From positions 1 through 38,389 of IMG/VR virus record IMGVR_UViG_3300027721_000035: DNA of 38,389 nt; one strand, 5' to 3'. The notes below the pieces were generated by a model. The model saw only the letters and a list, made by a program, of their open reading frames with translations, ran no database searches and was not told the DNA's origin. This stretch comes from a virus. The position numbers were made by a program, and so were the translations under genes. This document shows, in pieces, positions 4,770 to 19,334 of the stretch; positions within the stretch are counted from its first letter, which is position 1, and every line of letters starts with the position of its first letter.

Positions 4770-6641
4770 ATGAGTTTAAGCTTAGACAAGCAAATATTAA
4801 GTGACATTACAGTATACACTAAGTATGCTAAATATTTACCGGAAAAAGAAAGAAGAGAAACCTGGGATGAATTAGTAACGCGCAACATGGAGATGCATAC
4901 TGCTAAGTTCCCTAAAATGAAAGAATCAATTGAACAAGTTTACAAGAATTTTGTATTTACTAAAAAAGTTTTACCTTCGATGCGAAGCTTACAGTTTGGT
5001 GGTAAAGCTATTGAGCTTAATAATGCTCGTGTTTATAACTGTGCTTTCCTACCTGTTGATAGTATTCATAGTTTTTCTGAGACTATGTTTCTTCTTCTTG
5101 GAGGGACTGGAGTGGGTTATTCGGTCCAGAACCACCACATTGAGAAACTTCCTGAAATCAGAAAACCTAATTACAATCGTAAGAAAAAGTATGTTGTTCA
5201 GGATAGTATAATTGGTTGGGCAGATGCGGTTAAGGCTTTATTTAAATCCTATACCGGCGGATTAACTTCGCATATAGAATTTGATTTCTCTGATATAAGA
5301 CCTAAAGGAGCTTTACTTATAACGGCTGGAGGTAAAGCACCAGGGCCTGAGCCATTAAGAATTGCATTAGTAAAGATAGAAGCTGTACTACGTGAGAAAG
5401 ATGATAGATCTAAATTAACGGATATTGAATGCCATGATATTCAATGCCATATTGCCGATGCAGTTTTAGCTGGCGGTATTCGTAGAGCAGCAATGATTAG
5501 TTTATTTGATCTTGATTCAGATGCAATGTTAAATTGTAAAGCTGGTAACTGGTGGGAAGACAATCCACAACGAGGTAGATCTAATAACTCAGTTGTTTTA
5601 TTACGTCATAAGATTGATAAGAGAACATTTGATAAAGTATGGGAACGCATTGAAGCATCTGGATCTGGTGAGCCTGGAATATATCTTACTAATGATAAAG
5701 ATTGGGGAACTAATCCTTGTTGTGAGATTGCTTTAAGGCCATATCAGTTTTGTAATCTTACTGAGATTAATATGGCAGATATTCAAGATCAAGAGGACTT
5801 TAATGCTAGAGCATCCGCCGCATCATTCATTGGTACATTGCAAGCCTCGTACTCAGACTTTCATTACTTAAGAGATATATGGAGAAAAAACACAGAAAAG
5901 GATGCCTTGCTTGGAGTATCAATGACGGGTATTGCATCAAAACACAATATACAATGTTTAAATTATGAAGAAGCTGCTCGAGTTGTTAAAGAAACCAACA
6001 ACGTTATTTCTGCTGCCCTTAACATTAACAGAGCTGCAAGAACTACCGCTGTTAAACCAGCTGGCACTACTTCTCTTGTGCTTGGTACGTCTAGTGGTAT
6101 TCACGCTTGGCATAACGATTATTATATTAGAAGGATGCGATTGGGTAAGAATGAAGCAATCTATTCTTATCTTGCAATAAATCATCCAGAACTGCTCGAA
6201 GATGAATATTTTAATCCAACATTACAAGCAGTCATTTCTGTGCCTCAGAAAGCTCCAGACGGAGCCATAACACGACATGAATCAACATTAGATCTATTAG
6301 AAAGAGTTAAATTGATTTCTAAAGATTGGGTTAAACAAGGTCATGATAAAGGTAATAATACCCATAATGTTTCTTGCACTGTTTCTGTGCGTGATGATGA
6401 ATGGAAAATTGTTGGTGAATGGATGTGGGCAAATAAAGAATACTATAATGGTTTATCTGTATTGCCTTATCACGGCGGAACATACAAGCAAACGCCATTT
6501 GAAGATTGCACTAAGGAAGTATACGAAAAGATGATGTCTACATTACACGATGTTGATCTATCTAAAGTAATTGAGGTTCAAGATAATACAAATTTTGGTG
6601 ATTCTACTGCTTGTGGTGGAGGTAATTGTGAAGTAGTATGA
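4770..6641 (+). CDS. nrdJ: Adenosylcobalamin-dependent (class II) ribonucleoside-triphosphate reductase
   Basis: Makes dNTPs from ribonucleotides by thiyl-radical chemistry started from vitamin B12 coenzyme, so the phage can raise the dNTP pool with a single oxygen-independent protein. Active-site pattern: Cys91 (RVYNC) and Cys328 (QFCNL) form the redox pair, and N-P-C-C-E at 315-319 supplies Asn315, radical Cys317 and Glu319; the 11-residue spacing from Cys317 to Cys328 equals that of the Lactobacillus leichmannii enzyme (Cys408/Cys419). The C-terminus ends ACGGGNCEVV, a CxxxxC relay pair (Cys615/Cys620) as in that enzyme. GGTGVGYS (111-118) and PAGTTSL are also typical. At 623 aa it is shorter than the 739-aa model. 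No intein or second subunit is present. An A-rich leader precedes the start; the last 4 bases overlap the next gene. Confidence 0.93.
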   Translation: MSLSLDKQILSDITVYTKYAKYLPEKERRETWDELVTRNMEMHTAKFPKMKESIEQVYKNFVFTKKVLPSMRSLQFGGKAIELNNARVYNCAFLPVDSIHSFSETMFLLLGGTGVGYSVQNHHIEKLPEIRKPNYNRKKKYVVQDSIIGWADAVKALFKSYTGGLTSHIEFDFSDIRPKGALLITAGGKAPGPEPLRIALVKIEAVLREKDDRSKLTDIECHDIQCHIADAVLAGGIRRAAMISLFDLDSDAMLNCKAGNWWEDNPQRGRSNNSVVLLRHKIDKRTFDKVWERIEASGSGEPGIYLTNDKDWGTNPCCEIALRPYQFCNLTEINMADIQDQEDFNARASAASFIGTLQASYSDFHYLRDIWRKNTEKDALLGVSMTGIASKHNIQCLNYEEAARVVKETNNVISAALNINRAARTTAVKPAGTTSLVLGTSSGIHAWHNDYYIRRMRLGKNEAIYSYLAINHPELLEDEYFNPTLQAVISVPQKAPDGAITRHESTLDLLERVKLISKDWVKQGHDKGNNTHNVSCTVSVRDDEWKIVGEWMWANKEYYNGLSVLPYHGGTYKQTPFEDCTKEVYEKMMSTLHDVDLSKVIEVQDNTNFGDSTACGGGNCEVV

Positions 6642-7201
6642 TCTATATAAAGGATGATTTTTTAGATGATAATTTAATTGAATTATTGAATACCAATAAG
6701 GATGAATTCCAGGAAATAAAAACTCCTGGAAAATCCTTCTGGGTTAAAGAAGTTCCTAAGCCAATTGCTGATATTATAAAATTTGAAATAGAGGATTTAG
6801 AACATGCTAGAATAGACCCTATATTATATTTTATGCGTGAGGCTAAAGAAGGACAAGATATAGATTGGCGTATTCATAATGATTCTATAATAGAAGGTCA
6901 ACAACCGGATAGAGCCTGTGTATTGTATATATCTGAAGAACAAGATGAGGGTTTAAATGGCACGGCTTTTTGGGAACATTGGAAACATGGAGAAAAATTT
7001 GAAAATGTTTCTGTTGAAGAACAAAATAGATTGTTGAAGGAAGATGCTAATAGCCCTAAGAAATGGAGATTAAAATCTATTATAGGGCATAAAAAGAATA
7101 GATTGATATCTTATCCTTGTAATTACTTTCACAGTAAGTATCCTAATGAATTTGTAGAAAGTAGAATAGTATTTGTAATGTTTTATAAAATAAAAAAATG
7201 A
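6638..7201 (+). CDS. 2-oxoglutarate/Fe(II)-dependent oxygenase-like protein
   Basis: Predicted double-stranded beta-helix dioxygenase, 187 aa. The iron-binding facial triad is visible as RIHND (His80, Asp82) and YFHSK (His165), with Arg176 eleven residues after the distal His as the expected 2-oxoglutarate ligand (ESRIVFVMFYK). Between them are core strands (ACVLYISEE, LNGTAFWEHW). Substrate is unknown: phage members of this superfamily hydroxylate proteins, nucleotides or DNA bases. Its position directly after ribonucleotide reductase (ATGA-type 4-base overlap) and in the same block as a dCMP-type enzyme makes nucleotide or base modification possible, but similar genes in other marine phages are usually left unassigned. 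Family assignment rests on the motif spacing. Confidence 0.7.
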   Translation: MIYIKDDFLDDNLIELLNTNKDEFQEIKTPGKSFWVKEVPKPIADIIKFEIEDLEHARIDPILYFMREAKEGQDIDWRIHNDSIIEGQQPDRACVLYISEEQDEGLNGTAFWEHWKHGEKFENVSVEEQNRLLKEDANSPKKWRLKSIIGHKKNRLISYPCNYFHSKYPNEFVESRIVFVMFYKIKK

Positions 7202-7475: not shown

Positions 7476-10400
7476 CTATTTATTTGCGTTTAACTTTTTA
7501 AACATTTCTAATTTCTTACGTCTTTCCTCACGTTTCTCTAAAGCCTTTTCCTGTCTCTTTTCTCTTTTTTCTAAAGCTATTTTACGTCTATATTCTCTTC
7601 GTTCAGGTATTGATAAACCTGCGATACTATCTTTTAGTCTTTCAGCATTCTCTCTTCTAGTTTCTTTAGCTTTTATTACACCTTCCTCTTTACGTTTTGT
7701 TTTAGCGGTTTCTTTTATAAGTATATCTCCTTTAGTTCCTTCAATACCAACTGTCCAAGGTGAATAACCCATTCCTGTTGCTAATCTTTGCATTGCGGTA
7801 TTTTCAGAATTAAATGCTTGTGATACGTTTTCTACCTTATTAACTAATCGATCCATAGGGAAGTTAGTTCCAACCTCAACAAGTTTTCCAGTTACAGAAT
7901 ACATAGGGCCCAAGTGAACTCTACCGTCTTGCATAACACCCCAACCTCTTGCTGCTATTAAATCTTTGTCATATTTAGTTTGTTGTAATGCACTATATGT
8001 TTTTCTTAATTTAGATCCAATTGGCGGTGACATATTCGCTGCTTCAAGAACAACTTTTGCATATTCTGCTTTTTGTTTCTTTGCTTGCTCTTCAAGGTAT
8101 TTAACAACAGTATTTTTTAATGTTGCAGCAACACCTCCAATAAAACCAGTACCTCTAAGTATACTGTCTAATACTCCGTTTGCAACATCAATTGCGGCAT
8201 CTGTTTTTGTTTTCTTTTTATCTTTTTTCTTTTTATCTTCTTCATCATCCTCATCAAACATAATTGCAAATAATCCTTGTTGTAATGTGGAGAACATTAT
8301 ATTCTGCACAGCTAAGTAGTAAGCTATTTTAGAGATATTAGTTTTAGCATCACCTCTACCATTTTTAAGATCTAGTACAGCTTTCTTAACGATACGAGAC
8401 TGTTGCATTGTGAAGTTTTGGAAAACTAATAGTATTCTACCAGCAGCACTTGATTGTTGTTTTGATATATCTTTTGGATCTCCAGACTGTTGTGTTTCAT
8501 CTGATATTTTAGAGAAATCTTTCCATGCTTTCGATTCAGCTTCTGCGTCGGTATATTTTCTTTTTAATTTTCCATCCGCATCAAGCCCTTCATATTCTGC
8601 CATATAAGAGTTAATTCTATTTCTGTAAAACGGTGCGCCTCCAGAAGCAATAGCGAAACTATCCGCTAATTGTGTTGGTGTATAACCTATTTTTAATAAG
8701 TACGATGTTACTGCTACTACTTTATTTTTACTACCTGCCGCAGCATTAGCAATTTCAGCAGAAGCAACGTCTTCTCTTAACCCGCCACGTCTTTCTTTTA
8801 GTTTATCTGAATTCCATATACGAGAAAAGTCTTTCCAATATTGAGGTTGGTTCAAGAATGCTTTACCAGCATTGTAAGGATTATTATCTCTCCAGTTTAA
8901 GAAGTTAACAGCTCCTAACATCTGCAATGCAGCAGAACGAGTGTTCAAGAACATGATTGCTCCTGTTGAACCATTTACCCAACTACTCCAAGCAGTTGTT
9001 TCTTTGTCTTGTCCAATACTTCTGTTCTTTCCATTTATCATTCTATATATAGAATCTTCTAATGCTTCCCTAACGTTTGTGCCATAGACAGCTTCCACTT
9101 TATTTATATTAGGCCCAGATAATCTACCGTTCTCAAATTTACCAAAAATATTTTCTGTATTTTCAATGAACTCGCCTAAGAATTTTTTTCTACCAGCACC
9201 TTCTGTTATGTTGTACAAATCAGAAATAATAGTGTCAGAATCCCAATAAGTTCCAGGCGGCAACCAACCTTCTTTTTGTCTCCCCATTACTATAAGCCCA
9301 TCTTTAAACGCAGCAAGGTCCGGATCATTATTAATAAGATCAGTTAAATAAATTGTATCTCTTTCAGATAAACCTGGAATTTCTGTACCATATTGATTCC
9401 ATATTGCAACTCGCATTGCTTGATCATAGGTAAAGTTTTTATTCGGAGTTAATTTTTCAAGTTTCTTTTTAATCTCTGGGAATGATTTTAACAATGCTTT
9501 GTATTCTTTCTTAATAGATTGTCTTACGGCATCCATCATATCCACCCCATTTATATAAGGATTTATTAAAGCATCTTGAAAGAATTTCTTTTGTTCTTCA
9601 CCTAATGTGCCTTTACCCATAAATTTATAAAGCAATAACTCAAAATCTGCAGCAGATGGCGGAACATAAAAGTCAAATCTGTTTTTCTTTAATCCTTTTC
9701 TTCTTGCAGTAATATCTGAATATACTTTATAGCTTTCTACATTTTTGTTCTCTTCAATGATTCTATTAAAATCATCAGACATGGTTTTACTAAACTTAAT
9801 TTTAGCTTGTTGTATCTTTGATTTAACGTCTAATACATCTAACGCATCTTGTACTGCTTTAACATTTTGTATTGCATCATCAGAAAAGTAAAAGTCATTA
9901 TAACCTTCTGCTGCTTTTGCAACCATCCAATCTGCTTTTGCTTGAGCCGTACTATTGCCTAATCCTGCTATATTTTCTAATGGTATATTAATACCTATAG
10001 AGGTTAAAAATTCATGTATAGGCGTTGCAGCATTAGCAGGACGTGCTGTAAGAATAAAGAAATTTTCTGGTCCAAATTTACCAATCATTTTTTTCATCTT
10101 TTCAACCATAGGACCTGGTTTGCCATCTACAACTTTGCTAAATTCAGAAAAATCAAATACTGCTCCTTCCGATAAAAGATTAGAACCTTCTTTAGCAAAC
10201 TCTTCAGCGTTTAATTTGCCAGTTGAACCATCAGGCATTGTGTATAGCACATTACCTTTTGTTAAACCAACAGTGTCATCAAAATCAAAAACAGAAATTC
10301 CCTTTGGAGATTTAGAATATTTAATTGGTAATGATGAGTTAATAGCGATTATATTGTTAGAATTTTGAATATTTGCTTTAGAAGTTATCCCAGACTTTGC

Positions 10401-13400
10401 TAATTTTACTAATGAGTTAAATTTAGCTTTTGATCCATATTCTTTTTCTAACCCTGTAACTTTATACCCTTTGTCTATTAAATCTTGAAGATATAAAACT
10501 GCACTTTGATCATACATTCTGTTTTTACCTTCAATATAATCAGGTAATATATCTTCCAATGCTTTAGGTACTAGATTCACCTTTGCTTTATCTATAAAAG
10601 CTCTAAACTCATTTTCAGTTATTTTACCATCAAATAAATCTATAGTCTTTTCAACAATATTTTGAACAGGTGGATTATGCTCAAGTCTTGTTTCTTGATT
10701 TTTACCTAATTCTAATACGCCTAACCCTGATTTAGATACTTTTCTAACTAACCCTCTTTGATCCCATCTTAAAAACGCTAAATATGATTCAAAATCTTCT
10801 TTAGTTTGGTCGTTATTTTTAAAATAATTAATAACATTAATTAAATCATTTGTTGCCTTAATTGCTTCCGTATCAATTTTATTTGTAAAATTTGACCAAT
10901 CTTTTTTAATAGCGGTTGTATCTGCCCATAAAGGAACCTTAGTCTCCCCAAAATATATGGATTGTCCTTTATCAACATTGCCTAATCTATAAGAGTCTTT
11001 ACCTATTATTCCTTCAAATTTTGAATAGGTTTTAATTATTGGTAAAATTATATTTTCAAATAATCCTTTATTTGTAGTAAATTGTTTTAATCCTTTACCA
11101 ATTTCATAAGCTAATGTTCTTAAAGATCTACCATCGCTAGCAATCCAATTATTAATTACATTTACTTCATCATCAATTGTTTCAGCATTATATATATCTT
11201 TACCTAATTTATCTTGTGATATTTCAAATCCTTTAATTAATTTTTTTGAGAATTTAACATTACCTCGCTCCGCTTGCTTTGCAAATTCATTTATAACGTT
11301 GTCTTTTAAATAAACACCAAGTCTTTCTTGATTTGCTTTAAACGCATCAAAGATTGGCCCTTCTTCTTCAAAATCTTTATTAATGATATCAAATGCAGAT
11401 TCTTCAGCAATTGCTTTTGCTAATGATTCTTTTCTCCCTCTTATTGGATTACCGCTAGATTCTAATATTTGAGAAAGATAATCTGCTTCAGAAACATTAT
11501 TAGCAACATTAGGTAATCTCCTAACAAGCTCTGCTCCAGATGTTCTACCCGCTAAATCAGTAGATGTGGTTTCTCTATCTATTTTTTTACCTACCCATTC
11601 AGGATAATTAACCCATCTACCATCAACTTGTTTTTGAATAGCTTGAGGTATACCACCTTGACCATCTTTACCCATGAGCCATGTTGTGGTCATGTTTTCT
11701 AATACGTAACGCTTATTTTTTAATAACCAATTTTTAAGTTGATCATCTTTTTTACCACCCATTACCGTTTTAAGATCAATATCTAATTGCTTGCCTATTT
11801 CATCTCTAATTTCAGCAATTAAAGGCGTAACTGTACGATTTAAGCTAATAGGCTCGTCTATTTTAGACTTTAATGTTCTTACTACTGTTATAATCTTGTT
11901 TTTAGCCGTTTCTAACGCTTCTGGCTCAAATATTTTTGATTCTAATGCATTCTTATACTTTGGCCTTTCTTTTGTCTCTGTAGGAGCTTCTTCGGCTATT
12001 AAACCTTTTTCTTCTGTTACGTCCTTGCTAAAATCTTTATCTAACACTCTTCTCGATGCAGCAATAGCTCTAACCGGTAAATATTTATTAATGAATGCAG
12101 CTAAAGGTATTCCACTATCAGGTTTATATTTACTTATTAAGTCTAAAATACCGCCCGTTCCAGTTTCAATCTCATCAGTTAATAATTCTCTATCGAATCC
12201 AGGAGCATCCATTCTTCTATTAACTAATTTTTTAGTAATAGGTTTAAATAGATCTATAATATCTTGAGCGCCATTTAATCCTTTATCGTCATATATTTTT
12301 TGTACTTTGTCAGAAGACAATGAGGATCTTTCATTTTTTATTATTTCTTTATCTGCATCTTCTTCGGACACTTCTTTTTTAACCTCAACTACAGGTGTTG
12401 TCTTTTCTTTTTCAACCGCCTTTTTAATTTTATTTTGTAGGTTAGCAACTTGCTGATCAAAATCGTCAGGATCATAATCAAATTCGTTGTCTTGTATATC
12501 TTTAAGTTGTTTCTTTAAAGTTTCAACTTGTGATAATGGTTGACTTTTCTTTACAGTAGTTTTGGTAGCAGTTCTAACTGGAGCATTACCTTTAGCAATG
12601 GATCCTTTATATGTACCCTCTTTTGCCAATGCTTTAAATGCTTTTGTAAATTGCCCTTTCTCAAAGCTTTTATTGTAATCTCTGACAAAATTAAATACGT
12701 CTTTACCCGTATCAAATTTTACTTTGCTTAATCCATATTTTTGAAATACCCTACGTAATATATCGCCTATTTTAGTAAAGAAGGTTTCATTATATTTAAT
12801 ATCTTTTTTTGTTAAAGACTCAGATAATAATGGTAAAACCTCCTCTAAATATTTTCCTTCTGCTTTTGCTGTAGCATCATCTGCTTCTGTAATTGCTTGG
12901 TTATATCTTTCTTCTTGTATAAGCCCTCTTTCAAAATAGTCTTTTGCTTTTTCTACTTTAGTATCTAATTCTGATTTGGTTTTTTCAAAATCGGTTTTAT
13001 AAACATCATATCTATTTTTAAATTCAGTATTATTGAATTCTTCTGTTTCAATGTAACCCTCAATATGATTATATAAATCCGTACCTATTTTCTTTTGCAA
13101 GGTTGGATTATCTTTTACCGCTTTATAAATAAGCTTATGCAGGAATTCATGCTGCCCCGTAGTGACTACTTGATCCATATTAGCGGCTTCCTTATTTATA
13201 ATCAAAGCTTCTTTACCATTTGCTAATGGGATAAATGCCCCGTAGGAATCCGCAAGATCTTCTATAGTATTTTCATCAAGATCAGTATTTTCATTTAAAT
13301 ATGTTATTACATCATTAGCGGTATTTAATTCGGGCATGTCAATTTCTTCGCTTAACCCCAATTCTTTAGCAGCTGTTCTTGTTCTTTCTACATCTGTAGC

Positions 13401-15227
13401 AATGTCTTTTGTACGAATTTCAGCATTATAAATATTAATTGCCTCCCTTTTTATTTCGTCTTCATTAAACTTTGTTTTAGGATTGTCTGTTAATTCAGAA
13501 TCCGCTACCAATGTTTCATTAGCCAATACTTTAATTCTGTTTTGCTCAGCATCTGGTAATTTATTAAAATCTTCATAGATATAATTACCTTCAATGATAC
13601 TTGTTTTTCTATCTTGTATTTCCTTAGCTTGTAAAGACAATTCGCTACCCATTGCTTTTTTAATATCAAGAGGCAATTCTTTATTGTCAACTAAATCTAG
13701 ATATTTACTCTTTAAATCATCTAATCCAGAATTTAAATCATTAAGTTCTGTTTTTACACTTTCTGGTAGCGCGCTAATTTTTTCTAGACTGCTACCTACG
13801 ATAGCTTTATTTTCTGTAACAAGTCTATTAACCCGTGCAGAAATTATTTTTTTATCTGGATCACTTATATATGGGTTAGATAACTGATTTGTAAGTGAAT
13901 TTATTTCTTTATTTACTTTTTTTACTTGATTATATTCAACTGCTTTCATATAGCCTTTAGCAGCATATACAGGCACCGTGTTAGTCCCTGCCATACCTGT
14001 AGCTATAATACCTGCATTTGTTATTTGTCTATAATCTAGTTCATTTCTAATGCCGGAATTCATGTCATTTAATTGGTTACCCAATTCTACGGCGCTTTCT
14101 TCAGCAATCTCGCCTACAACTCCAATCATTGGGCTTTTTTCAATTGCTTTTTCAAGAGTACCCATTATTCCATTAGAAATAATTTTGGAACCTGCTTTTG
14201 CTCCTTTATCTGCAATTATTCTTTTTACAACACCGCCAGATGCTCCTGTAAATAATTGGCCTAAGTATCCTTCTAGCATACCTGATACGGCAGCGTTTGT
14301 TGTTCTTCTTTGAACGTCCATTTCTGGATTTTCTTTTTTTATTTGCTCAGCTTTTGATATTGCGGTCGATGTTGCAATACCGGCCATAGCAGCAGAACTA
14401 CCTCCGCTAAGTATTGCAGCTGCCATCATAGGTGAAGATTGAACTGTTCCTCCAGCAACTAATTTTGCGGCACCTAAATAATTACCATTTTCTATAGCTG
14501 TTAATGGATCTACTCCATTTTTATCACTATATTCTTTTATTACTTTATTAGATTCGTCTATTCTTTTTTGTAAAATTTCTGCTGGAACATTTCTAATTCC
14601 TAAATCCTCCATCATTTTTTCAGAAGAAGTGTCCTCAACTTCTTCTCCGGTTAATTTACCAATTGCTCTACCAACAGGATTTGTAATAGATGCTGAAACA
14701 TCATAAGCAAATTCTGGAATTTTATAAAAAGATTGCGTTATTGTAGAAACACCAACATCAAAACTTTCTTTAAGGTAATTAAAAAAATCATTATCTTGCT
14801 CTTTTGGTTTCTCGTATTTTCTTAATCTAGTAACAGGCTCCTCTTTTGCTTTTTCTTCTTCTTTTGCAGCTTCAATAGCTTTATATTCTTTTGTTTTGCC
14901 AACCTCTTTAAAATTGAAGGGTTTTAATTCATTATTAATTTCTGCTCCAAAATCATCAACGCCTGGAGTTATAGTTGGTGTAATGGGCTTTTTCTTAGTC
15001 TTATTAATTTCAGAAAACTGATCTTTTGCAGGATTTTCAAACCCAAACGTTTTTTTATAAACATCCTCACCAAATCTTTCATCAAGTTTAGCAGGCTGTT
15101 TTGTTTTTTTAGAAGCAGGTTTGAAGCCTTTACTTTTAATATAAGCCGGGAGTTTGTCTTTACCCCCGGCTGCTTTAATTAAATCTTCTTCTGTGTATAT
15201 TTTACCGTTAAGTTCGTATTCTAACAT
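7476..15227 (-). CDS. Giant ejection/internal virion protein with embedded HAD phosphatase domain (2583 aa)
   Basis: Last and largest product of the virion block, in the place of T7 gp16; inferred to be packaged in the head and ejected with DNA. The N-terminal 35 residues (YELNGKIYTEEDLIKAAGG) look like a conserved head module of such proteins, followed by a Lys/Pro-rich linker. Residues about 245-420 are Ala/Gly-rich helices (possible membrane-active or pore region). HEFLH at 693-697 is a zinc-peptidase-like motif. Residues about 988-1065 resemble sigma-70 region 2. A HAD hydrolase domain spans about 1645-1800: DFDDT (1648-1652), ILTARP (1725-1730) and DD (1783-1784). The C-terminal third (about 1810-2583) is helical, with an acidic/Lys-rich insert near 2320 and a very basic tail, as in marine podovirus proteins. 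Enzymatic activity of the modules is untested. Confidence 0.88.
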   Translation of the reverse strand: MLEYELNGKIYTEEDLIKAAGGKDKLPAYIKSKGFKPASKKTKQPAKLDERFGEDVYKKTFGFENPAKDQFSEINKTKKKPITPTITPGVDDFGAEINNELKPFNFKEVGKTKEYKAIEAAKEEEKAKEEPVTRLRKYEKPKEQDNDFFNYLKESFDVGVSTITQSFYKIPEFAYDVSASITNPVGRAIGKLTGEEVEDTSSEKMMEDLGIRNVPAEILQKRIDESNKVIKEYSDKNGVDPLTAIENGNYLGAAKLVAGGTVQSSPMMAAAILSGGSSAAMAGIATSTAISKAEQIKKENPEMDVQRRTTNAAVSGMLEGYLGQLFTGASGGVVKRIIADKGAKAGSKIISNGIMGTLEKAIEKSPMIGVVGEIAEESAVELGNQLNDMNSGIRNELDYRQITNAGIIATGMAGTNTVPVYAAKGYMKAVEYNQVKKVNKEINSLTNQLSNPYISDPDKKIISARVNRLVTENKAIVGSSLEKISALPESVKTELNDLNSGLDDLKSKYLDLVDNKELPLDIKKAMGSELSLQAKEIQDRKTSIIEGNYIYEDFNKLPDAEQNRIKVLANETLVADSELTDNPKTKFNEDEIKREAINIYNAEIRTKDIATDVERTRTAAKELGLSEEIDMPELNTANDVITYLNENTDLDENTIEDLADSYGAFIPLANGKEALIINKEAANMDQVVTTGQHEFLHKLIYKAVKDNPTLQKKIGTDLYNHIEGYIETEEFNNTEFKNRYDVYKTDFEKTKSELDTKVEKAKDYFERGLIQEERYNQAITEADDATAKAEGKYLEEVLPLLSESLTKKDIKYNETFFTKIGDILRRVFQKYGLSKVKFDTGKDVFNFVRDYNKSFEKGQFTKAFKALAKEGTYKGSIAKGNAPVRTATKTTVKKSQPLSQVETLKKQLKDIQDNEFDYDPDDFDQQVANLQNKIKKAVEKEKTTPVVEVKKEVSEEDADKEIIKNERSSLSSDKVQKIYDDKGLNGAQDIIDLFKPITKKLVNRRMDAPGFDRELLTDEIETGTGGILDLISKYKPDSGIPLAAFINKYLPVRAIAASRRVLDKDFSKDVTEEKGLIAEEAPTETKERPKYKNALESKIFEPEALETAKNKIITVVRTLKSKIDEPISLNRTVTPLIAEIRDEIGKQLDIDLKTVMGGKKDDQLKNWLLKNKRYVLENMTTTWLMGKDGQGGIPQAIQKQVDGRWVNYPEWVGKKIDRETTSTDLAGRTSGAELVRRLPNVANNVSEADYLSQILESSGNPIRGRKESLAKAIAEESAFDIINKDFEEEGPIFDAFKANQERLGVYLKDNVINEFAKQAERGNVKFSKKLIKGFEISQDKLGKDIYNAETIDDEVNVINNWIASDGRSLRTLAYEIGKGLKQFTTNKGLFENIILPIIKTYSKFEGIIGKDSYRLGNVDKGQSIYFGETKVPLWADTTAIKKDWSNFTNKIDTEAIKATNDLINVINYFKNNDQTKEDFESYLAFLRWDQRGLVRKVSKSGLGVLELGKNQETRLEHNPPVQNIVEKTIDLFDGKITENEFRAFIDKAKVNLVPKALEDILPDYIEGKNRMYDQSAVLYLQDLIDKGYKVTGLEKEYGSKAKFNSLVKLAKSGITSKANIQNSNNIIAINSSLPIKYSKSPKGISVFDFDDTVGLTKGNVLYTMPDGSTGKLNAEEFAKEGSNLLSEGAVFDFSEFSKVVDGKPGPMVEKMKKMIGKFGPENFFILTARPANAATPIHEFLTSIGINIPLENIAGLGNSTAQAKADWMVAKAAEGYNDFYFSDDAIQNVKAVQDALDVLDVKSKIQQAKIKFSKTMSDDFNRIIEENKNVESYKVYSDITARRKGLKKNRFDFYVPPSAADFELLLYKFMGKGTLGEEQKKFFQDALINPYINGVDMMDAVRQSIKKEYKALLKSFPEIKKKLEKLTPNKNFTYDQAMRVAIWNQYGTEIPGLSERDTIYLTDLINNDPDLAAFKDGLIVMGRQKEGWLPPGTYWDSDTIISDLYNITEGAGRKKFLGEFIENTENIFGKFENGRLSGPNINKVEAVYGTNVREALEDSIYRMINGKNRSIGQDKETTAWSSWVNGSTGAIMFLNTRSAALQMLGAVNFLNWRDNNPYNAGKAFLNQPQYWKDFSRIWNSDKLKERRGGLREDVASAEIANAAAGSKNKVVAVTSYLLKIGYTPTQLADSFAIASGGAPFYRNRINSYMAEYEGLDADGKLKRKYTDAEAESKAWKDFSKISDETQQSGDPKDISKQQSSAAGRILLVFQNFTMQQSRIVKKAVLDLKNGRGDAKTNISKIAYYLAVQNIMFSTLQQGLFAIMFDEDDEEDKKKKDKKKTKTDAAIDVANGVLDSILRGTGFIGGVAATLKNTVVKYLEEQAKKQKAEYAKVVLEAANMSPPIGSKLRKTYSALQQTKYDKDLIAARGWGVMQDGRVHLGPMYSVTGKLVEVGTNFPMDRLVNKVENVSQAFNSENTAMQRLATGMGYSPWTVGIEGTKGDILIKETAKTKRKEEGVIKAKETRRENAERLKDSIAGLSIPERREYRRKIALEKREKRQEKALEKREERRKKLEMFKKLNANK

Positions 15228-15243
15228 ATATATATTTTGATTA

Positions 15244-16806
15244 TTAATCTATTGTACCACCTATAAATGTAGCTAATACGCTAGGGTCTGTTATATCTTC
15301 TGTTCCTACTTTAGGTATTCCATCTTTGTCATATACTCCCCATCTTCCATCTAGTATTTGCAATGTATATCCTCCTTTAGATACCCCACCAGCTTTATTC
15401 TTTATAACTTTACGAATTCTTTCATTAAACGCTGCCTGGTTTTTTTGAGTGCCCGTTGCACCACCTCCTGATTTTTTAGATTCCTCATTAAATATTCTAA
15501 TACTTTCAGGATCCATTTTATAATATTCTCCGTCAACTAATTTAAGTTGAGATTTTTTAATTATATTATCAACTTCTTTTTGTTCCATTTTGCTTGCTAA
15601 AAGATTTACCTTTGTTGTAAGATCTAATTTAGCAAATTCTTTTGATTGGTAATTAGTACCAAATCCTAATTTAGCTAAAACACCATCAGCAGTATCTGGA
15701 TCTTGAAAAGCAGATGCTATTAATCCTTCTGCCTTTGCTTGTAACGAAGGCCTTAAAGATAATTTTATTGCCTCAATATCAATTGGTGTTCTTTGGTATT
15801 TTACAATACCTTGATCTTTGCTTAAATTAGCATTTCCTTCAACATCGATATATTCCGTTGGCTTCATATATATAGGAGATACGTCTATATCATTTTCTTT
15901 ACTATAAACCCCTGTTGTAACAGGAACTTTGCCATATTCAATCTCTGGTATTTTAACATATAATTCTCCGTCATAATCGGAATTAATATCCTTTTTAAAA
16001 TTAATAGAATATTGGTCATTGTCGCCTTTTATTATAAAACCTTTATTAATGCCTTCATTTATTTTTGTATCTATTTCTTCTTGGCTAACTCCTGGGTTAG
16101 TATCTTTAAAAGTTTTTGTTAAAGTATTATAATCGCCTATTTTTGAGGTAACGTTTAAAGTAATTTTAGAAGGATCGCCATTAACATCATAGTCTAATTG
16201 TTTTGTAGTCTTATCATTATCAGGGTATGCCAATGCAAAAGCTGTAACTCTGTTTAAAGTTTGATCAAGTATATTATCCCCCTTAAATTTAATATTACTT
16301 ATATTATTTTCATTAAGTTCTCCATTTTTAATTGCTTGTGCTTGAGAATATAATCCACCAGCAACCCTAACTAAATTTTCTTCACCTTTTGCAGTTTGAG
16401 CGGCATAAGCATTTTTTTTATCAAGTTCATCTTTACTTAAAACCTTTGTTTTAATCTCTACATTATTTTTACCATTTATTTCTCCAGTGCTAACAAGAAA
16501 TCCATTTATTAATTCTGTTCCATCAGCGCTGACGCCTGCTTTTACTAATCCATCATCAATTTTAGCCATGCGGGTTTGATATTTATATCTTTCCTCACTA
16601 CTATATATTTGATTATTTATAGCTTGTTCTTTCTCTTCTTTGGCTTTTTTTTCCGCTTCTAATTTAGCTTCTTTTTCTTTTGCCTCTCTATCTTTTTTAG
16701 CGGCAGCATAACTTTGCGTAAAACTTTCTGCAAAACCACCGGCCGCTTGTCCCCATATTAGGGCGGCATCGTTCTTTATTATAGTTGGATTATCGTATGC
16801 ACTCAT
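15244..16806 (-). CDS. Putative internal virion/ejection protein (520 aa)
   Basis: Unrecognised by domain, but its place between the 242-aa gp14-like protein and the giant protein matches T7 gp15. The N-terminus (IWGQAAGGFAESFTQSYAAA) is an amphipathic helix, followed by a long Lys/Glu/Ala coiled coil (about 35-80). The middle is beta-rich (strands such as KITLNVTSKIG and GELYVKIPEIEYGK), then comes a helical region with Gln/Lys-rich stretches and a C-terminal strand-rich part (YTLQILDGRWGVYDKDG). No signal peptide and no catalytic motif. The start is preceded by AATATAATAT, a leader shared by several genes of this block. A structural or ejectosome role is inferred from order. Confidence 0.72.
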   Translation of the reverse strand: MSAYDNPTIIKNDAALIWGQAAGGFAESFTQSYAAAKKDREAKEKEAKLEAEKKAKEEKEQAINNQIYSSEERYKYQTRMAKIDDGLVKAGVSADGTELINGFLVSTGEINGKNNVEIKTKVLSKDELDKKNAYAAQTAKGEENLVRVAGGLYSQAQAIKNGELNENNISNIKFKGDNILDQTLNRVTAFALAYPDNDKTTKQLDYDVNGDPSKITLNVTSKIGDYNTLTKTFKDTNPGVSQEEIDTKINEGINKGFIIKGDNDQYSINFKKDINSDYDGELYVKIPEIEYGKVPVTTGVYSKENDIDVSPIYMKPTEYIDVEGNANLSKDQGIVKYQRTPIDIEAIKLSLRPSLQAKAEGLIASAFQDPDTADGVLAKLGFGTNYQSKEFAKLDLTTKVNLLASKMEQKEVDNIIKKSQLKLVDGEYYKMDPESIRIFNEESKKSGGGATGTQKNQAAFNERIRKVIKNKAGGVSKGGYTLQILDGRWGVYDKDGIPKVGTEDITDPSVLATFIGGTID

Positions 16807-16821
16807 ATATTATATTTTTAA

Positions 16822-16878
16822 TTAAGAAATTGCTCCCCTGTCGTTTACGGCCCATGTATCCTGGGCTCCTACTTTCCC
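16822..16878 (-). other. Predicted programmed -1 ribosomal frameshift site and 16-codon extension
   Basis: On the minus strand the zero-frame codons GGG GGA AAG TAG contain the slippery heptamer G_GGA_AAG (16878-16872), which fits X_XXY_YYZ and is the sequence used in the lambda tail gene G/T frameshift. After a 5-nt spacer (TAGGA) comes a hairpin GCCCA-ggataca-TGGGC (16866-16850). The -1 frame then reads VGAQDTWAVNDRGAIS and stops at TAA (16824-16822), filling most of the 62-base gap before the next gene. The efficiency is unknown; a homopolymer indel in the assembly or a recent mutation is the alternative. Confidence 0.6.
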
Positions 16879-17597
16879 CCACCCATTCCGCCTACTGCAC
16901 CTCCTAAAGCGGAACCTACTCCTTGAATTGCTCCACTCCACGCTGCAGCTTCCCCTGCTTGAGCAGATGCTTGATTTTGCATTGCTTGTGCTAATGCTCC
17001 AGCTGATTGCCCTAAGTCCGCATTAGTTCTATCCTCTCGCGCCGCGAACATAAATTGTTGCCCTGCTGCTTGAGCCGCTTGTACTCTTTGTGCTTCGCTA
17101 ATTCGTATTGATTGTAATCTTTGTTGTTCAGCCATTTTAAGTTGATTACGTTCTGCTTCTCCTTGAGCTTTTAACTTTTCATTTGCCGCTTCTTGTTGTT
17201 CAATATTTGCGGCAATATCTTTTTTACTTCTTAATGCTGCTTGTGCCAATGCGGTAGCTCCACCCGCACTAGCTCCCGTTGCTCTTAAAGTATCTAATGT
17301 ATTTGCTAAAGCTATATCAGCCTCTTCTGCTTGCATTTCTGCAGCTTGAGTAGCTACTCCTAAATTTGCATAAGGATTATTTATCATTCCTGATAAATCT
17401 GTTGCCATGCTACTAATATCAATTGTTGATGCATAAGGATTGGTTATTGGTTGTCTAGCCGCTTTAATTGCAGCCATTTCCGCTCTCGATCTATTTGCAT
17501 CATTACGAGCCCCTTTTGCCGCTTGACTTGCTTGATGAGCCGATACTGCTCCACCTACTAGTGCGACACCTGCTGTTATTGCTGTTACTGCTGCCAT
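16869..17597 (-). CDS. gp14-like internal virion protein, zero-frame product (242 aa)
   Basis: Starts with a hydrophobic Ala/Gly/Val segment (VTAITAGVALVGGAVSAHQA), then a long Ala/Gln/Glu-rich helical body (KLKAQGEAERNQLKMAEQQR and repeats of AQAA) and ends in a glycine-rich tail (GVGSALGGAVGGMGGGK). This composition and the position just before two larger internal proteins match T7 gp14-type ejection proteins, which form a pore in the outer membrane. The predicted helices and lack of cysteine are consistent. The frame ends with GGT GGG GGA AAG TAG; the GGGAAAG is a known -1 slippery heptamer, and the -1 frame continues for 16 codons to 16822, giving a 258-aa alternative product (see separate entry). 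The start ATG follows TTAATATAAT. Confidence 0.78.
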   Translation of the reverse strand: MAAVTAITAGVALVGGAVSAHQASQAAKGARNDANRSRAEMAAIKAARQPITNPYASTIDISSMATDLSGMINNPYANLGVATQAAEMQAEEADIALANTLDTLRATGASAGGATALAQAALRSKKDIAANIEQQEAANEKLKAQGEAERNQLKMAEQQRLQSIRISEAQRVQAAQAAGQQFMFAAREDRTNADLGQSAGALAQAMQNQASAQAGEAAAWSGAIQGVGSALGGAVGGMGGGK

Positions 17598-17598
17598 A

Positions 17599-18006
17599 TT
17601 ATATTAATTTTTTTGAAATTTCATACGATGCTCTATCATCCACCGTATATCCTAATTTTTTGTGCATATCTATTAAGCCTGTGTTTCTTCCAATACTTAA
17701 TATTATATTTTTATCAACGCTTAACGCTATATCTTCTAATCCAAGTATTAACATTTCTAATGCTTCTTTTCTATCTGCCTCTCTATAATCTTTATTTGAT
17801 ATTATCCATTCCATCCAAGCTACTTTAGAGTTAGTCAAATATAAAAATCCAGATACTATTGGTATATTGCCTTTATAAACAATTAGACCTCCAGTACCAT
17901 TTAAAGGCAATAGGTCTTTATTCATTTCTGGCCAATTCCATTTAGTCCACCATTCTTGTAATGTTTCCCAATCTGATTCTTGTAATGCTCGTACAGTTAA
18001 TTCCAT
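17599..18006 (-). CDS. GNAT-family N-acetyltransferase (135 aa)
   Basis: Predicted acetyl-CoA-dependent acyltransferase. The N-terminus (VRALQESDWETLQEWWTKW) is the standard GNAT strand-1/helix-1 pattern (R-x-L-x-x-x-D), followed by core strands GGLIVYKGN, PIVSGFLYLTN and WMEWIISN, then the acetyl-CoA-binding helix region YREADRKEALEMLI, and a closing strand ILSIGRNTGLIDMHKKLGY, the usual N-x-x-x-x-x-x-x-K-x-G-F/Y ending. The Q/RxxGxG/A loop is degenerate (YREADR). It is embedded in the tail and ejection cassette, one base from the 242-aa gene, as in several T7-like and marine podoviruses. Substrate unknown: it could modify a virion or host protein. The A-rich leader AATTAAATCAA precedes ATGGAA. 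Confidence 0.78.
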   Translation of the reverse strand: MELTVRALQESDWETLQEWWTKWNWPEMNKDLLPLNGTGGLIVYKGNIPIVSGFLYLTNSKVAWMEWIISNKDYREADRKEALEMLILGLEDIALSVDKNIILSIGRNTGLIDMHKKLGYTVDDRASYEISKKLI

Positions 18007-18017: not shown

Positions 18018-19334
18018 TTAATATGATGATTCTATATATTCTGAAGATACTGCAAATAATTCTGCTCTTTTTTGTAATGTTGCATTCTGATACACAAATC
18101 TTGTGGTAGCAAACATACCTTTAACACCCGACATTGATTTGCCCCATACTATTTCTCCTGTAGTTGGATTAGATATATTAATTAAGTTCGCAAAATATTT
18201 ATCTTCTTTTCTTTTAAATGAATTTGCAAATAATTGGGCTTCCATATCACCTAGCGTTAAAATTCCTACGTTTTTTGATACAGGTGCTGAAATATCAGTT
18301 TCAGTATAAAAATCAGTAACTTCCCAGCCACCACTACCTTCGTAATTTACAGTTTTAAATGTTTTAACAGTAGATACCTCAGGGTTAAACACTGCTTCCA
18401 CAATGGAATTATTATTTACCCCGTAAAAATTACCCCAATTTGTTGTTTTTGAATAATGTTTCCAAATTTCACCATTCTTAAATGTGTAAAAATTGTTTCT
18501 TAAACTATCTCCATGATTAGGTTTATAATCAAAGAAACTTGTCCATCCTTGTACATCCTCATCAAATGCCAATGTATTATAAGTCCCATTTGAATTTTGT
18601 AATGAAACCACATATTCCTTACTATGCATGTCCCACATGCCTAAAATTAAGTTATCATCCCCAATTTCGGCGAGTCTATCTCTAAAGAAATTACTCATTC
18701 CATACTCTGAAACTTCCGTTATGCCATCTTGAGATAATCTTAATACTAAGCCTTGATTTCTATCTGTAAAGTATTTTCGATAGCCATAAACAGCAAAACT
18801 TTCGGGGTTAGTAGCAATGCCATAGTTTCCGGCATAAGCTTGAATCTGGCCAATTACTTGCGATCCAGAAGTGGTCATTGGTTCTCCTTCAGCTGAGTAA
18901 ATTGCGTCTTTATCAATTAAAGCTCTACTTACTTTAAACTCCTGGAAAATGGTTAAGTTTGTATTTTCTGAATATAATTTTTGTATAGAACCATTATAAG
19001 GATCTAAACTTTTTGTTATATCCTCCCCAACTGAAAATTGATTTGTATTATTTACACCTGTTCTAGAATTAAATATGCCAGAATATATTAAAGAATTTTT
19101 TCTATGCTGTTGATTAATATTGTCTTCCACAATATATGCTTTAACCCCTAAATCAACATTTGTGTTATTATAGCCTCCTCTAATCCTTGCTTCTTCTGCA
19201 AGCCAATCCGTTGGGCCAGCATCATAATCGTTTGGAACAAAATCAAAATTTGTTATAGGCCCAGATTCCACTACTGTATCCAGTTTTTTTAACCAAAAAG
19301 AGTTGAAAAATTTTAATTCTAATATTGCAGCCAT
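18018..19334 (-). CDS. Propeller-like tail/stabilization protein (438 aa)
   Basis: Tail structural protein. It carries a chain of motifs I associate with tail stabilization or muzzle-type proteins of marine and crAss-like podoviruses: RKNSLIYSGIFNSRTGVNN, then SIQKLYSENTNLTIFQE, KVSRALIDKDAIYSAEG and YGIATNPESFAVYGYRKYFT. Repeated blade-like strands (GLVLRLSQDGITEVSEYG, DNLILGMWDMHSKEYVVSL, NSNGTYNTLAFDEDVQGW) indicate a beta-propeller or beta-solenoid. The lipid-free N-terminus begins AAILELKFFNSFWLKKL. No signal peptide. It lies directly downstream of the 1749-aa protein; in related phages the corresponding N- and C-terminal motifs can be in one polypeptide, so the two may assemble together. 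Exact role (tail tube, hub or fibre anchor) is inferred. Confidence 0.75.
   Translation of the reverse strand: MAAILELKFFNSFWLKKLDTVVESGPITNFDFVPNDYDAGPTDWLAEEARIRGGYNNTNVDLGVKAYIVEDNINQQHRKNSLIYSGIFNSRTGVNNTNQFSVGEDITKSLDPYNGSIQKLYSENTNLTIFQEFKVSRALIDKDAIYSAEGEPMTTSGSQVIGQIQAYAGNYGIATNPESFAVYGYRKYFTDRNQGLVLRLSQDGITEVSEYGMSNFFRDRLAEIGDDNLILGMWDMHSKEYVVSLQNSNGTYNTLAFDEDVQGWTSFFDYKPNHGDSLRNNFYTFKNGEIWKHYSKTTNWGNFYGVNNNSIVEAVFNPEVSTVKTFKTVNYEGSGGWEVTDFYTETDISAPVSKNVGILTLGDMEAQLFANSFKRKEDKYFANLINISNPTTGEIVWGKSMSGVKGMFATTRFVYQNATLQKRAELFAVSSEYIESSY

Follow-up and report, generated by a model that had tools for sequence, protein, structure and literature searches.

A candidate -1 frameshift signal at the end of a putative internal virion protein gene in an IMG/VR virus and its relatives

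Does the small virion protein gene of the IMG/VR record IMGVR_UViG_3300027721_000035 always end at its own stop codon, or do some ribosomes change frame just before reaching it? The window, that is, the whole stretch of 38,389 nucleotides that we analyzed, carries this gene on its minus strand at the gp14 position of the virion operon. Its end reads GGA ATG GGT GGG GGA AAG TAG GAGCCCAGGATACATGGGCCG, and the minus strand from 16900 to 16800 is ...ATG GGT GGG GGA AAG TAG GAGCCCAGGATACATGGGCCGTAAACGACAGGGGAGCAATTTCTTAATT... As expected of a programmed -1 site, the zero frame contains an X_XXY_YYZ heptamer, and the -1 reading frame stays open past the zero-frame stop. A preliminary description of this DNA had listed the heptamer, the adjoining TAG, a 5-nt spacer, a hairpin, and a -1 frame of 16 codons, and on re-reading the minus strand each of these is exact. 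The features and their coordinates are collected in Table 1.

Table 1. Features at and around the gene end, with positions in the 38,389-nt window.
Feature	Position	Strand	Remarks
gp14-position virion protein gene	16869..17597	-	zero-frame product 242 aa; TAG stop 16869-16871; 170 distinct homologous loci
Slippery heptamer G_GGA_AAG	16872..16878	-	zero-frame TAG (16871-16869) directly 3'
Putative stimulatory hairpin GCCCA-ggataca-TGGGC	16850..16866	-	5 nt 3' of the heptamer; spacer TAGGA
-1 extension VGAQDTWAVNDRGAIS	16872-16825; TAA stop 16824-16822	-	16 codons; peptide conserved in L002 and L009
Predicted transframe product			would be 258 aa; candidate junction and tail peptides GGKVGAQDTWAVNDR; YKPNDTVGFYGNLFNN
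Next gene, 520-aa protein, gp15 position	15244..16806	-	context
Giant 2583-aa protein, gp16 position	7476..15227	-	synteny with phi38:1
Upstream gene, 135 aa, homologue of phi38:1 gp98	17599..18006	-	BLASTP 8e-10
Homologues carrying the S74-like domain			L004, L021, L047, L090, L142, L210, L227, L240, L243, L395

Homologues of the gp14-position protein were collected by IMG/VR protein scans, using as queries the protein of the window and five relatives. Deduplication by the sequence ahead of the stop leaves 170 distinct loci from viral metagenomes. We observe the signal in about one in seven of these related versions of the gene: 23 of the 170 have a heptamer GGGAAAN or AAAAAAG at a distance of 0-2 codons from the stop, followed by a -1 extension. 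GGGAAAG is the most common heptamer (14 loci), followed by AAAAAAG (4), GGGAAAT (2), GGGAAAA (2), and GGGAAAC (1). The heptamer abuts the stop in 18 of the loci, is one codon away in 4, and two codons away in 1, and the extensions that follow range from 16 to 49 residues. Two additional loci, L049 (GAT TTT TAA, around 3652) and L376 (GCT TTT TAG), have a -1 extension at the same place behind T_TTT_TAR. Re-pairing at that site would be open to the P-site tRNA only, which suggests P-site slippage in competition with termination. What had been described from a single sequence, the slip site, the adjacent stop, and the -1 extension, is conserved when the C-termini of homologues are compared, and it is so across different heptamers and hairpins. 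Each refuting condition of the preliminary description that we could examine agreed with the frameshift reading.

As a control for how often such gene ends occur, we looked for any heptamer followed by a -1 run in other genes of these loci, and found 24 cases in 461 ORFs, all A/T-rich, with many belonging to a single conserved upstream gene. Because A/T-rich chance sites make this control too loose, it was repeated for GGGAAAN and AAAAAAG, and none of the 567 other ORFs (at least 100 codons) of the same loci has one of these heptamers in its last three codons. The contrast between 23/170 and 0/567 has a Fisher p-value of about 7e-16, a value that overstates the independence of the counts since the homologues are related to each other.

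An error in the G5A3 run of one contig would produce the same appearance, but the run is unchanged in contig L001, which is almost identical to the window (1 mismatch in 6726 bp), so that an indel in one contig is unlikely; and because 25 divergent loci carry the signal, assembly indels cannot explain it. The 25 positives are without exception contigs from metagenomes. The signal is absent from this gene in the named relatives that we examined (phi38:1, phi19:3, Calle_1, elemoC, and MW202828). Contigs of GTDB genomes yielded no homologue of the protein, a DNA pattern for the WAVND extension matched only the near-identical contig, and the downstream 520-aa protein used as a query retrieved only two loci.

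The next question is whether the -1 frame is coding. From the TAG of the window to the next ATG (16806) there are 62 nt, and the preliminary description had taken this gap to be mostly coding. The comparison bears that out, as the -1 peptide is conserved in relatives and long gaps go together with extensions. In all 25 positives (the 23 heptamer loci plus L049 and L376) the next gene with an ATG start lies 59-327 nt away, whereas in the other homologues this distance has a median of 12 nt and does not exceed 40 except in L078 and L103, two long-gap loci in which the next gene looks disrupted. The -1 peptide of the window is homologous to VGDPDIWAVNDTGIVS in L002 and to GVAKDTWAVNDSGTVS in L009. 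Extension peptides match each other with E-values of 1.6e-10 for L086 and L105, 2.4e-8 for L013 and L125, and 6.6e-7 for L001 and L009. The conserved motifs include WAVND, YKPNDTVGFY (common to L086 and L105), and YNNRDFAKY (common to L079 and L170), and a 19-residue stretch is common to L013 and L125. The tails, polar for the most part, vary strongly across clades, and short-query BLAST found no convincing in-frame copy of them in other homologues. Reading on in the zero frame, or in the +1 frame, usually meets a stop earlier than the -1 extension does.

Codon-by-codon counts in the -1 frame give dN/dS values of 0.26, 0.24, 0.10, 0.12, 0.36, and 0.25 in six of the seven pairs compared, three of the six coming from one trio. 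The remaining pair, L088 and L151, has a value of 1.47 and no purifying selection, on only six substitutions. The heptamer itself was expected to leave a mark at synonymous sites, and it does: the base before GGA, the one that completes GGGAAAN, is a G in 19 of 19 loci with an extension versus 0 of 11 Gly-(Lys/Asn) ends without one. As G occupies only 12% of the third positions in this gene, the constraint on a silent site is seen directly.

Downstream of the heptamer, a putative stimulatory hairpin lies at 5 nt in the window, and hairpins are enriched at this place among the homologues. In 19 of the 23 heptamer loci the hairpin score is above the mean of the locus's own shuffled sequences, and in 16 loci a perfect Watson-Crick stem of 4-7 bp begins 3-7 nt past the heptamer. 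These stems are unrelated in sequence (AACCCC-GGGGTT, GGGCC-GGCCC, AGCAG-CTGCT, and TGCCG-CGGCA, for example). Hairpin scores in the positives exceed both those of homologues without the frameshift signal (p 6e-8) and those of internal coding segments (p 2e-5), and ViennaRNA on 36-nt stretches gives a mean z of -1.4 for the positives versus +0.3 for the homologues without the signal. No perfect stem was found in the tested stretch of L009, L088, L151, L049, or L376. The hairpin at 16850-16866 was also considered as an intrinsic terminator, a reading that we rejected as no T-run follows it.

The predicted frameshift tail is gained and lost often among the homologues. A tree of 136 of them, which predates the last two homologue scans, needs 13 state changes of the signal, and well supported branches force at least 11. 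Past its stop, L006 has a decayed-looking -1 peptide, IGKNNWVIKN, that resembles the VGAQDTWAVND tail of the window and has no slip site; perhaps it is the remnant of a recent loss. The same C-terminal end can also carry other additions. Ten homologues (Table 1) have in frame an S74-like domain (SDRRLKxNI...VDYSKIDVEFK), similar to the C-terminal chaperone domain of the S74/endosialidase type, with a best Pfam score of 21.3 that is just below the curated cut-off of 22. This domain and the frameshift signal never occur in the same homologue. Among named relatives, in-frame tails are seen at the end of elemo gp22 (TPLFQ) and of phi38:1 gp99 (NPFK).

What protein would receive the tail? The preliminary description called it gp14-like, a label that gene order supports and that profile comparison with T7 gp14 does not. 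The order of a small, a medium, and a giant virion gene is that of gp99-gp100-gp101 in Cellulophaga phi38:1, and hhalign relates the small protein to gp99 ('virion structural protein') at 91%. The 520-aa and 2583-aa proteins are paired with gp100 and gp101 by position only, with no BLASTP similarity between the 520-aa protein and gp100. Like T7 gp14, P22 gp7, and phi38:1 gp99, the protein is small and helical, with a hydrophobic N-terminus, and its gene precedes those of a medium and a giant virion protein; unlike gp99, T7 gp14 and P22 gp7 have no profile match to it (hhalign probability 0.6% and 0.7%, no homology detected). Its AlphaFold model is almost entirely helical (pLDDT 79), and in BFVD it is best matched by an 'Internal virion protein' (E 5e-3). 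Fold, N-terminus, and BFVD match all fit an ejection protein at the gp14 position. Profile searches of solved structures and Foldseek against the PDB returned nothing meaningful. Operon position and profile homology to gp99 support an internal virion protein. Its operon slot is that of the T7 gp14 class, a label given by position without detected sequence homology.

Searches against named phages by blastn and tblastn found no homologue of this protein, and the relatives of the phage were therefore placed through portal and terminase. The portal is 52% identical to that of uncultured MW202828, 41% to elemoviruses, and 34% to phi38:1; the terminase is 64% identical to MW202828 and 45% to elemoviruses. 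By these two proteins, the phage is placed near the Flavobacterium elemoviruses, Cellulophaga phi38:1 (Pervagoviridae), and MW202828, a placement that makes a Bacteroidota host likely. Elsewhere on the minus strand, a 438-aa protein (18018-19334) has a match to PF25729, the C-terminal domain of the crAssvirus muzzle (E 1.7e-9), a hint that this phage and the crAss-like phages may have a tail muzzle in common.

We conclude that a programmed -1 ribosomal frameshift at the end of this gene very probably yields a main form of 242 aa and a minor, C-terminally extended form of 258 aa. Frameshifting in vivo, its efficiency, the incorporation of the product into virions, and the role of the tail are what we infer in the following. 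With GGA at the P site and AAG at the A site, ribosomes would be held by the hairpin 5 nt downstream, and the stop codon would be next in line. A fraction of them would bypass the TAG through tandem re-pairing on GGG-AAA, add 16 residues, and terminate at 16822. The rules of slippage are known mainly from E. coli, and the hosts here are presumably Bacteroidota. Only some subunits of the small helical protein would then carry the tail, which may serve as a docking peptide or cap and bind a partner belonging to the capsid core or the ejection complex; on every subunit it would be redundant or would clash. The C-terminus would be an exchangeable docking site, with frameshifting limiting the number of tailed subunits. 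A more general version, which we offer only tentatively, is that of a switchable C-terminal docking site for which short, fast-evolving tails are repeatedly acquired and rationed by a -1 shift at the stop, with the slip site changed to U_UUU_UAR in some lineages, where slippage may be set against termination.

The frameshift could also be real and serve regulation, such that termination near the next start sets the ratio or the coupling of the 520-aa protein and the peptide is incidental. In the window the -1 stop (16822) is only 15 nt ahead of the next ATG (16806), and the extensions, all of them short, differ greatly from clade to clade. But homologues without the signal usually have their next start closer still, and because the amino acids of the extension are conserved in related phages, with shared motifs and dN/dS values mostly of 0.1-0.36, we regard this explanation as unlikely. 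We give even less weight to the tail being made in some other way, either because RNA polymerase slips on the G/A run or because translation of a small overlapping ORF starts independently. Slippage during transcription is an established alternative (PMC5009743), and there are runs for it to act on, G5A3 in the window, A6G in others, and T5 in L049 and L376; most sites, on the other hand, are merely GGGAAAN with no long homopolymer. Separate initiation is unlikely because 20 of the 25 loci have no ATG, GTG, or TTG in the -1 frame at or before codon 3 of the extension. The hairpin, at a spacing downstream that suits a ribosome, agrees with a translational event.

The least probable explanation of all, close to negligible in our judgment, is chance, in which the gene end looks slippery by accident and is followed by a neutral spacer. 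A/T-rich heptamers do occur at other gene ends of these AT-rich phages, as the 24 control sites attest, but none of those is GGGAAAN or AAAAAAG, and in the positives the site, the long gap, the conserved -1 peptide, and the hairpin occur together. Several other gene ends in these phages are worth recording. On the plus strand of the window, a 187-codon ORF (6638-7201) ends in A_AAA_AAA directly before its stop and overlaps the ATG of the next gene (7198), which its -1 frame enters; it is a possible shift site, though a poly-A-biased one. The phi38:1 gp92 gene (L469:5621-6823) and its Calle_1 homologue (L472) both have A_AAA_AAG directly before the stop and the same 6-codon -1 tail, VRNTTK, which may be due to chance or may represent a very short frameshift tail. 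In L043, a gene ending in TAC GAA AAA AAT CAA TAA has A_AAA_AAT near the stop, and the -1 frame runs straight into the next gene, open for 517 codons, possibly a fusion and possibly chance.

Minor virion proteins extended by frameshifting are known from gene 10 of T7 and T3, from Lactobacillus A2, and from Listeria phages (PMC5009743). In the capsid proteins of phiEco32-like phages and of Privateer, the slippery sequence is GGGAAAG, and the longer form of Privateer has been detected in virions by mass spectrometry (PMC7881722). The T7/T3 10A/10B and Privateer cases resemble ours in that a -1 shift near the 3' end yields a minor, C-terminally extended virion protein, and the Privateer heptamer is identical to the one in the window, where the longer form is predicted. 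They differ in that here the protein is a small internal virion protein and not a capsid protein, the stop abuts the heptamer, and the tail, of 16-49 residues, is hypervariable and frequently gained or lost.

The slippery sequence of G/GT, the tail assembly chaperone of lambda, is GGGAAAG, the same as in the gp14-position gene. Its low-frequency -1 product binds an extra partner (PMC5009743). Unlike in lambda, the protein here is no tail chaperone and is not joined to the domain of a second ORF, and the gene order is of the podovirus type. A review of ejection proteins leaves frameshifting unmentioned (PMC8954989), and in the open-access literature we found no report of frameshifting in proteins of the internal, ejection, or gp14 type, in agreement with the preliminary description, which knew of none for this class. 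The mechanism is classical. As far as could be checked, the protein class, the placement against the stop, and the repeated turnover are new.

If the frameshift is real, the core or the ejection complex of these phages would hold two forms of one subunit in a set ratio, and the stoichiometry of that two-form subunit becomes directly testable. Many aquatic phages, which probably infect Bacteroidota, would also gain C-terminal tails that their annotation now lacks.
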